Source of the DNA: an uncultured Aliivibrio sp. | GTDB taxonomy: Bacteria; Pseudomonadota; Gammaproteobacteria; Enterobacterales; Vibrionaceae | Assembly (NCBI RefSeq): GCF_946479765.1 | Contig: NZ_CAMLHO010000009.1 | Location: 1 to 64,000, forward strand | DNA: 64,000 bases | Direction: 5' to 3' | Part shown: in pieces, positions 11,207 through 26,167 of the stretch | Numbering within the stretch: the stretch's first letter is position 1 | How the letters are laid out: each line of letters opens with the position of its first letter | Program-made: the position numbers and the translations under genes | The notes under the pieces: generated by a model | Databases searched by the model: none | Told to the model about the DNA's origin: nothing | Seen by the model: only the letters and a program-made list of their open reading frames with translations

Positions 11207-11602
11207 GCTATACATCCCTCTGCATTTTTAGTTACCTAGCATAATATTTATCAATTAAGGAGTTGCTTAATTGATAACCACTACGAGTACACTCTATTAA
11301 ATCTAAAGAGGGAGTCAAGAACAATTTGATTACCTTTGTAACATTTCTTTCTAATATCATATTTGAGATTAACATAATTATCAGTAATATCAATTTGATG
11401 AATAAAAGTGGTTATTAAGAAAAAAAGACTCTATTCTTTATTTTGTTATCGCTGCTTTTCTATTCACTTAAAAGGAAATTAAGTGATAAAGACATTAAAA
11501 TGACATCTTTTGTTTGATGTAATTCTTTGTCTAGATTAGGCTCAATAGTAGGAAGATATCCTTGTGGTATCAGAAATGCTATTTAACTAATCAGTTGTCG
11601 AC
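11207..11602. other. cspD-clpS divergent intergenic region
   Basis: These 396 bp separate two divergent genes and must hold both promoters. Apart from the inverted repeat at 11248-11277 the region is AT-rich, with no convincing ORF or RNA gene. In E. coli the corresponding CspD promoter is growth-phase controlled. I cannot fix -35/-10 elements with confidence. Confidence 0.5.
11248..11277. repeat. Perfect 11-bp inverted repeat upstream of cspD
   Basis: TTATCAATTAA (11248-11258) and TTAATTGATAA (11267-11277) are exact reverse complements around GGAGTTGC. It could be a hairpin in the cspD 5' untranslated RNA or a DNA operator. No T run follows, so it is not a terminator. Confidence 0.6.
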
Positions 11603-22113: not shown

Positions 22114-22818
22114 ATGAAAGACCAAAAGGTAATCGTTGCATTAGACTATGATAATCAAGCAGATGCGTTTTCATTTGTTGATAAAATTGATCCTAGTTCT
22201 TGCCGATTAAAAGTGGGTAAAGAGATGTTTACTCTATTTGGCCCTGAGTTTGTAAAGGAACTTCATAAGCGTGGTTTTTCTGTTTTTCTAGATTTAAAAT
22301 TTCATGATATCCCTAATACTTGTTCAAAAGCAGTACGTGCAGCGGCTGAAATGGGCGTTTGGATGGTAAATGTTCATGCTAGTGGTGGTGAGCGTATGAT
22401 GACAGCATCGCGTGAAATTTTAGAACCGTACGGCAAAGATCGTCCATTATTAATTGGTGTGACTGTCTTAACGAGCATGGAGCAACAAGATTTAGCGGGT
22501 ATTGGTTTAGATCTTGCGCCACAAGAACAAGTGAAACGTCTTGCAGCATTGACTAAAAATAGTGGTTTGGATGGTGTTGTATGTTCAGCGCAAGAAGCAC
22601 CAATGTTAAACGCTGACCTAGGCAAAGAGTTTAAGTTAGTGACACCAGGTATTCGCCCTGCAGGATCTGCGGTTGGTGATCAGAAGCGTATTATGACGCC
22701 GGTAGATGCGATAACGTCAGGATCTGATTATTTGGTTATTGGTCGCCCAATTACGCAAGCTGAAAACCCATCACAGGTATTGCATGACATTAATTTGTCG
22801 TTGGCTTCCGTTTTATAA
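22114..22818 (+). CDS. pyrF: Orotidine 5'-phosphate decarboxylase
   Basis: PyrF decarboxylates OMP to UMP, the last step of de novo pyrimidine synthesis. The protein is 234 residues with VALDYDN at the N-terminus, the catalytic block [12 protein letters not shown] (Asp-Lys-Asp residues), LVTPGIRP and a C-terminal [12 protein letters not shown] phosphate-binding segment. A CCAAGGAG site lies upstream. A terminator separates it from lapB. Confidence 0.97.
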
Positions 22819-22905: not shown

Positions 22906-24966
22906 TTACATTACACGCATACCAGGTTGAGCACCTTCGTGTGGTTCAAGGATCCAAAGATCTTTACCACCAGGGCCAGCAGCCAGAATCATGCCTTCAG
23001 ACATACCAAACTTCATCTTACGAGGTTTTAGGTTAGCAACCATAACAGTGTGCTTACCAACTAATTCTTCGGGGGTGTACGCAGATTTAATACCAGAGAA
23101 TACTTGGCGCATTTCACCACCAATATCCAGTTGGAATTTAAGTAACTTATCTGCTTTTGGTACTGCTTCACAAGAAATAATTTTAGCAATACGCATATCA
23201 ACAGCTTCGAACGCATCGAATTCAATCTCATCCGCGATTGGTTCTTTGTCTAGTTCTGTTTGGTTTGCTTTTTCTTTTTCCGCTTCTGCTTTCTCTTTTG
23301 CAGCCATTTCAACTGCGGCATCTTCTTTTGACTCTTCAACCATTGCTTCTACTTTCTTAGGATCAATACGGTTGAACAGTGCTTTAAACTGCGTGATTTC
23401 ATGAGACGTTAGAGGTTGTGCAATCCCTTCCCATGTTAACGTTTCATTTAAGAAGGCTTCAGTTCGCGCTGCAAGTTCAGGCATTACTGGTTTTAGGTAA
23501 GCCATCAGCACGCGGAACAAGTTAATACCTACAGAAGCGACTTCTTGTAGCTCTTGTTCTTTGCCTTCTTCTTTCGCAAGAACCCAAGGTGCTTTTTCAT
23601 CAATGTATTGGTTTGCTTTATCAGCAAGAGCGGTAATTTCACGAATAGCGCGACTAAACTCACGTGTTTCGTATAGCTCAGCAATACGATCAGCAGCAGC
23701 AACGAACTCGTTGTAAAGATCAGGAGCTACAAAATTATCAGAAAGCTTGCCATCAAAACGTTTAGTAATGAAACCAGCATTACGAGAAGCTAGGTTAACA
23801 ATCTTGTTTACGACATCAGAGTTTACACGTTGAGTGAAATCTTCAAGGTTTAAATCAAGATCATCAATACGGCTGTTAAGTTTAGCAGCGTAGTAGTAAC
23901 GTAGGCACTCTGGGTCTAGGTGGTTTAAGTAAGTCCCCGCCTTAATGAACGTGCCTTTTGATTTGGACATTTTTGCGCCATTTACGGTTACTTAACCATG
24001 AACAAATACATTGTTTGGTTTGCGGTATCCAGCGCCTTCTAGCATGGCAGGCCAGAATAGGCTGTGGAAGTAGACAATATCTTTACCGATGAAGTGGTAA
24101 AGCTCAGTCGTGCTGTCTTTCTTCCAGTATTCATCAAAGTTTAGGTCATCACGTTTATTACAAAGGTTTTTGAATGAACCCATGTAGCCAATTGGAGCAT
24201 CTAGCCAAACGTAGAAAAACTTATTAGTTTCACCTGGGATTTCAAAGCCAAAATAAGGTGCATCACGAGAGATGTCCCATTGGTGTAAACCAGATTCAAA
24301 CCATTCTTGCATTTTGTTTGCTGTTTCAGTTTGAAGAGAGCCAGAACGAGTCCACTCTTTTAACATGCTTTCAAACTGAGGTAAGTCAAAGAAGAAATGC
24401 TCAGAATCTTTCATTACTGGTGTTGCACCAGAAACGGCTGATTTAGGGTTGATTAAATCGGTTGGGCTATATGTTTCACCACAATTATCACAGTTGTCAC
24501 CATATTGATCTTCCGATTTACATTTCGGACAAGTGCCTTTTACGAAACGATCCGGTAAGAACATTTCTTTTTCTGGATCAAATAACTGAGAAATAGTACG
24601 GCTAGTAATAAAGCCATTTTTTTTCAGTTCTAGATAGATATTAGACGCTAATTCACGGTTCTCATCACTGTGTGTGCTGTGATAGTTATCAAAGCTAATG
24701 TCGAAGCCTGCGAAATCTTTTTGATGTTCTTCGCTAACTGCTGCAATCATCTCTTCAGGAGTAATGCCCATCTGTTGAGCTTTAAGCATGATTGGTGTGC
24801 CGTGAGCGTCATCTGCACAAATAAAGTTAATGTCGTTGCCACGTAAGCGTTGGTAACGAACCCAGATATCCGCTTGGATATGCTCAAGCATGTGGCCTAA
24901 GTGGATTGAACCATTTGCATATGGTAGGGCACATGTAACCAGAATTTTTCTCGGATCGGTAGCCAT
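22906..24966 (-). pseudogene. metG: Methionyl-tRNA synthetase, interrupted by an in-frame TAA
   Basis: MetG charges tRNA-Met and is essential. The frame would encode about 686 residues, the normal length for the dimeric form with a C-terminal tRNA-binding domain. The N-terminal part (24966-23995) has [15 protein letters not shown] and the zinc cluster [21 protein letters not shown] at 23994-23992 replaces the Tyr in the conserved [14 protein letters not shown], then the same frame continues with VTVNGAK and MSKSKG to the C-terminal EMAP-like domain ending [12 protein letters not shown]. There is no frameshift or deletion. The stop lies between HIGH and KMSKS, so neither piece alone should be active. 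An ATG at 23970 could restart translation but has no ribosome site. It may be a sequencing error in a live gene. Confidence 0.9.
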
Positions 24967-25099
24967 ATCTTCTCTTTCGCTTAATGTGATGGGTGAAAAT
25001 TTTAAGAGATAAATAGTACCTGAAGCGAGCTAGAAAGCATAGAGGATCAAGGATTCAATTAGTGATAGGATGAGTAAAAATAATCAAGGAGTAGGCAAG

Positions 25100-26167
25100 A
25101 TGGCTTTTACAACGATGGCAGAGATTAAAAATTGGTTAAATGAATTCACGCATCCGCAACTTTGTGAAGGTTGGGCTGACATTTCAAATATCGTGTTGAT
25201 AGCTGCTACGGGTGTTATTACCGTGACTTTCCCTTTTGTATCTGATTCGATAAAACATGATTTGCTCTCTTGGGTCGAAGAACAAAAAGAGCGTCTACTT
25301 CTTCCGTCTTTACAATTTATGGTGACGTCTAAAACGGCAACGTTAAAAACAGATAAGTCAGCAGTAAAGGGTGTAAAAAACATTATTGCTGTTAGCTCAG
25401 GTAAAGGAGGGGTTGGTAAATCAACAACAGCAGTTAATTTGGCATTAGCATTACAACATTTAGGAGCAAGAACGGGAATATTAGATGCCGACATTTACGG
25501 TCCATCAGTTCCATTAATGCTCGGCGTTGAAGATAAAAAACCAAATATTGTTGATAATAATCGAATGATGCCAGTTGAGGCTCATGGTATTTACAGTAAT
25601 TCAATAGGCTATTTGGTTGATAAATCAGAAGCTGCGGTGTGGCGCGGTCCTATGGCATCGAAAGCCTTATCGCAATTAGTGAATGAAACGTTATGGCCTG
25701 ACCTGGATTATTTGATTATCGATATGCCACCGGGTACTGGGGATATTCAGCTTACTTTGTCACAACAGATCCCAACCACAGGAGCCGTTATCGTAACAAC
25801 GCCACAAGACTTAGCGCTAACTGATGCGATAAAAGGCGTAAATATGTTTACTAAAGTAGACGTTCCTGTCATAGGTGTCGTTGAAAATATGAGTGTTCAT
25901 ATCTGTTCTAATTGTGGACATGAAGAAGCTATTTTTGGTTCTGGTGGTGCAGCATTGATGGCTCAGCATTATTCTATTCCTTTATTAGGACAGCTTCCTT
26001 TACATATTGATATTCGCAGTGAAAGTGATTCAGGTACGCCAAGTGTTGTCTCTGATACGTCTAGTGCTCACAGTCAGCTTTATATTCAGTTGGCCGAGCA
26101 GGTTTCAAGTCGATTATATTGGCAAGGAGAGGTTGTGGTTGACCAAATATTGTTCAAGTCATTGTAG
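25100..26167 (+). CDS. mrp: Iron-sulfur cluster carrier protein Mrp/ApbC
   Basis: This P-loop ATPase carries and transfers Fe-S clusters. The 355-residue protein has an N-terminal MIP18-like domain and a deviant Walker A, SSGKGGVGKSTTAVNLA, near residue 108. Further motifs are DADIYGPSVPLML, IDMPPGTGD and the cluster-binding cysteine pair in HICSNCG. The start at 25100 has an AAGGAG site at 25086-25091; an in-frame ATG at 25070 is weaker. It is divergent from metG, as in E. coli. Confidence 0.95.
   Translation: MAFTTMAEIKNWLNEFTHPQLCEGWADISNIVLIAATGVITVTFPFVSDSIKHDLLSWVEEQKERLLLPSLQFMVTSKTATLKTDKSAVKGVKNIIAVSSGKGGVGKSTTAVNLALALQHLGARTGILDADIYGPSVPLMLGVEDKKPNIVDNNRMMPVEAHGIYSNSIGYLVDKSEAAVWRGPMASKALSQLVNETLWPDLDYLIIDMPPGTGDIQLTLSQQIPTTGAVIVTTPQDLALTDAIKGVNMFTKVDVPVIGVVENMSVHICSNCGHEEAIFGSGGAALMAQHYSIPLLGQLPLHIDIRSESDSGTPSVVSDTSSAHSQLYIQLAEQVSSRLYWQGEVVVDQILFKSL

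Follow-up and report, generated by a model that had tools for sequence, protein, structure and literature searches.

The window analyzed here is a 64,000-nucleotide stretch of DNA from an uncultured Aliivibrio sp. It carries metG, the gene for methionine--tRNA ligase (MetRS), which is normally indispensable to bacteria. The neighboring genes pyrF, apbC, and udk each have a strong NCBIfam match. In this record, metG does not run as one uninterrupted reading frame, because codon 325 is TAA (bases 23994 to 23992). The original prediction had given this codon and these coordinates, had expected a Tyr at the site, and had described the frame as otherwise full length, all of which agrees with what we find: the remaining codons are open, and the TAA is the sole internal stop. 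The base directly 3′ of it is G.

Table 1. Features of the metG region, with positions counted from the first base of the window
Feature	Position	Strand	Remark
metG reading frame (methionine--tRNA ligase), 686 codons, one internal stop	22906..24966	-	Both halves match NCBIfam
Upstream open frame, 324 residues, up to the TAA	23992..24966	-	TIGR00398 and NF001100 match to residue 324
In-frame TAA, codon 325	23992..23994	-	Tyr in 109/109 homologs
Codons 326-332, between the TAA and the first possible restart; would be absent from a restart product	23971..23991	-	
Downstream open frame of 354 residues, starting at the KMSKS-internal ATG and closed by the natural stop	22906..23970	-	
pyrF, convergent neighbor of metG (context only)	22114..22818	+	
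apbC, divergent neighbor of metG (context only)	25070..26167	+	

Both halves of the frame match the MetRS family models TIGR00398 and NF001100, although the upstream half by itself reaches a score of 572.8 with NF001100, below the cut-off of 587; the downstream match starts at the ATG at 23970. This ATG is the first in-frame ATG, GTG, or TTG after the stop. It is codon 333, lies inside the KMSKS motif, and aligns with residue 333 of the solved MetRS chain 1p7p_A. Four terminator-like sites occur inside metG, against a mean of 1.7 in shuffled sequences.

At column 325, none of the 109 MetRS homologs has a stop, in a sample that leans to intact genes and that consists of 29 loci (the best-scoring of 60 relatives) and a further 80 loci. 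Substitution rates were computed with 7 of 14 aligned relatives. Against these seven, dN was 0.006–0.020 upstream of the TAA and 0.016–0.030 downstream, with dS at 0.33–0.60, so that dN/dS lies far below 1 on both sides and resembles that of a pair of intact relatives. Judged by these rates, purifying constraint is strong on both halves, and metG was therefore functional until very recently or still is. At columns conserved in at least 95% of homologs, its protein deviates only at 228 and 325. On these columns and the low dN/dS on both sides, we rejected the idea of a decaying gene. We also considered whether the gene contains a stretch of poor sequence, as its unique substitutions cluster at gene positions 920–1043 (6 of 24 unique sites). 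We give this cluster no weight, since its sole amino acid change, at residue 314, is found in 4 of the 109 relatives. The closest metG among those compared, from genome G004, has 92.7% DNA identity. For the upstream half, A. fischeri gives the closest named record, at 98% identity in a search from which very near records were possibly excluded, which suggests that the organism is an Aliivibrio. Searching relatives at the DNA level for corresponding stretches succeeded in 0 of 3 and 1 of 3 cases.

How might a bacterium survive with such a stop? One reading is that the nonsense mutation is real and that a functional MetRS gene is missing from the assembly, for instance because it sits on an unassembled plasmid or because the culture was mixed. 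Plasmid-borne metG does exist: of 72,556 plasmid records, 221 hold a metG-like match, and 190 of these 221 are named Escherichia. One E. coli isolate is reported to carry metG solely on a plasmid (PMC8297927), so that real loss of the gene is possible given another copy. However, the assembly of the present genome (3,796,369 bases in 120 contigs, 99.99% complete) holds no second MetRS. Its eight matches to PF09334 are the metG, leuS, ileS, valS, and cysS frames, and the matches other than metG were rejected as second copies. The earlier suggestion of a real mutation covered by another metG elsewhere thus found no support in a search of this assembly. Moreover, with both halves still constrained, any loss would have to be very recent, and we regard a missing copy as improbable. 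As separate observations, 212 of the 221 plasmid records with a metG-like gene were predicted to be non-mobilizable, and three other genomes (G018, G019, and G028) have a second, shorter MetRS-like frame (501–516 aa) together with a second, longer IleRS-like frame (1063–1071 aa).

Alternatively, the stop could divide the enzyme rather than destroy it: the ribosome would halt at the TAA and restart at the ATG 22 bases further downstream, and two chains would form the active enzyme. The restart codon is near and in frame, and most of KMSKS would be kept in the second chain. An artificially split E. coli MetRS reportedly assembles; our literature search did not turn up that study. Several features of the site speak against such a division. 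By eye, nothing resembling a Shine-Dalgarno sequence precedes the ATG at 23970, in keeping with the earlier remark that this codon has no ribosome site, whereas the natural metG start has GAGAAG. Restarting there would drop codons 325–332 and with them V326, G330, and K332, each identical in 109 of 109 homologs. The bases between the TAA and the ATG differ from those of relatives only where the relatives also vary among themselves, and none of the 109 homologs is split, so the arrangement is not one that relatives share. A natural two-chain MetRS therefore seems to us very unlikely.

Ordinary low-level read-through of the TAA would instead have to supply enough full-length MetRS. Its sole support is that the frame stays intact beyond the stop. 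With G as the next base, TAA terminates translation strongly, and the yield would be too low for an essential enzyme; RNA folding around the site is ordinary (z-score −0.73). Among the readings that we weighed, this one is barely credible.

A real TAA could also be read by an ochre suppressor tRNA, the simplest form being a mutated tRNA-Tyr copy hidden in a collapsed tRNA array. Contigs of this assembly often terminate in or near tRNA genes, which suggests short-read assembly, and one of them ends inside a tRNA-Tyr gene (contig C72, L228:1474-1524), so that the tRNA-Tyr copies are not fully resolved. The tRNA list is also incomplete, with 150 of the 279 candidates scored, and neither tRNA-Lys nor tRNA-Ala is among the 47 tRNAs read from them. 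Yet none of these 47 has a stop-reading anticodon, and the tRNA-Tyr anticodon arms are normal, with GTA in three of three. A suppressor should also be weighed against the other genes of this genome, and no further in-frame TAA occurs in the 179 genes compared, nor any stop in 75 ABC-ATPase matches across the genome. Ochre suppression has, in our estimate, only a slight chance of being correct. The read-through and split-enzyme options of the original prediction are thus unsupported: no stop-reading tRNA is among the 47 read, no Shine-Dalgarno-like stretch was seen, and no other stop lies well inside the conserved genes sampled.

The 179 genes, 48 from the window and 131 from contig C3, were set against genome G006, and metG alone has a stop well inside the gene; this comparison covered stops beyond the first 40 residues and genes of at least 70% identity. 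One C3 gene ends about seven residues early: its TAG stands at residue 246 of the 252 matched. A C3 match spans 39% of its query. In the reverse control, G006 showed a single stop, at residue 54. Four window genes were flagged for stops near their starts in comparison with a relative. In three of these, a start codon directly follows the stop, and we put them down to over-long starts in the relative. In the remaining gene, at 11576, the stop is at residue 5. We discarded a codon-usage scan for interrupted genes, as it failed to pick up metG, which served as its control. The genome's ileS and valS are intact, and the 464 kb sampled contain no ambiguous bases. On these two counts, the sampled genome has no general excess of errors.

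It is useful to set this gene beside metG in other genomes. The catalytic part of metG is interrupted in 6 of 150 Vibrionaceae genomes, namely the present one, G138, G107, G014, G104, and G078. In the last four of these the gene is frameshifted, and valS is likewise broken or partial in three of them (G107, G104, and G078). The unrelated G138 instead resembles the present case: it has a lone TGA at codon 305 (L212:1016-3058, contig C3) in a genome of three contigs, in which no second MetRS matched at E 1e-20. In G014, a 2.6-Mb genome whose metG is ∼53% identical, the gene is split between two frames near residues 123–152 (L211 and L217, C1:93371-94533), and the metG frameshifts of G107 and G104 (L213 and L218), which belong to one genus, include a common break at residue 664/665. 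In a class-level sample, a stop in metG was found in 1 of 137 matched genomes, the present one, while 6 of 143 genomes had no metG match at the limit set. As controls, ileS was free of stops in 147 of 147 genomes among the matches listed, out of 150, with G025, G149, and G107 falling below these, and valS had stops in 1 of 146 (G107), with G104, G078, and G028 partial. By these counts metG looked somewhat more often broken than the longer ileS and valS, on numbers too small to build on. Going by these counts, broken metG has a base rate among assemblies, and the five other cases are candidate errors. A bolder reading, that the lone stop of G138 is a second tolerated one in the same part of the gene and that metG is decoded either as two chains by stop-and-restart in the KMSKS region or by ochre suppression of the sole MetRS gene, strikes us as improbable.

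Taken together, the TAA in metG is quite probably an artifact of the record, arising from a base-call or assembly error, or else a variant limited to the culture that was sequenced. A single wrong consensus base, or a variant confined to the culture, would create the TAA, and the living species would then make ordinary full-length MetRS from metG. We favor this reading because nothing seen in the genome explains survival with a stop in the only metG copy found. The original prediction had listed four options without ranking them; the evidence favors error, and the second metG, read-through, and the split enzyme find no support. Several observations fit an artifact: the lesion is single and isolated, in a gene otherwise constrained (dN/dS far below 1 on both sides), its stop is not common to relatives, and five other genomes of the 150 in the family have a broken metG. 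The same genus offers a precedent in strain ES114, in which 12 interrupted genes were corrected (PMC2330054). There are also points against it. The sampled genome has no general excess of errors, which would make this a rare, single slip; the lone stop of G138 would need a separate error; and the ES114 errors were mostly frameshifts in an old Sanger assembly. On balance, we infer a wrong base at codon 325.

Either outcome has consequences. If the stop is an artifact, the case is a caution that public assemblies contain broken essential genes, and a tally of interrupted essential genes, proposed in the ES114 report (PMC2330054), is useful as a quality check. If the stop were real, the strain would be a natural test of the minimal need for intact MetRS, or of an essential enzyme that is split or suppressed.

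Known systems offer several points of comparison. Aquifex LeuRS is a naturally split, two-chain class I synthetase and would be the model for a two-chain MetRS. In contrast to such split synthetases, metG here shows no second ribosome site of its own, and none of its 109 homologs is split. Lesions of metG are otherwise known in living bacteria: persistence-linked alleles are viable, including the truncating frameshift metG630 (PMC11004401). These alleles resemble the present case in being metG lesions that bacteria carry, but metG630 breaks the gene near its 3′ end, around residue 626, whereas the stop here stands at 325, within the catalytic part. The plasmid-borne metG of Escherichia (PMC8297927) illustrates a route to life without a working chromosomal metG, and differs in that the present assembly has no second MetRS. 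A further comparison is with Vibrio fischeri ES114. Its first sequence had 12 genes split, thrS among them, of which 11 are essential and one is conditionally so. They account for 12 of the 74 loci that resequencing corrected; most corrections were frameshifts, the thrS error included, and a few were nonsense changes (PMC2330054). That older Sanger assembly was resequenced, whereas the metG lesion is one substitution, known from the published sequence alone. The two cases are alike in kind: in the same genus, conserved essential genes, including that of a tRNA synthetase, were broken in one record while their relatives were intact.
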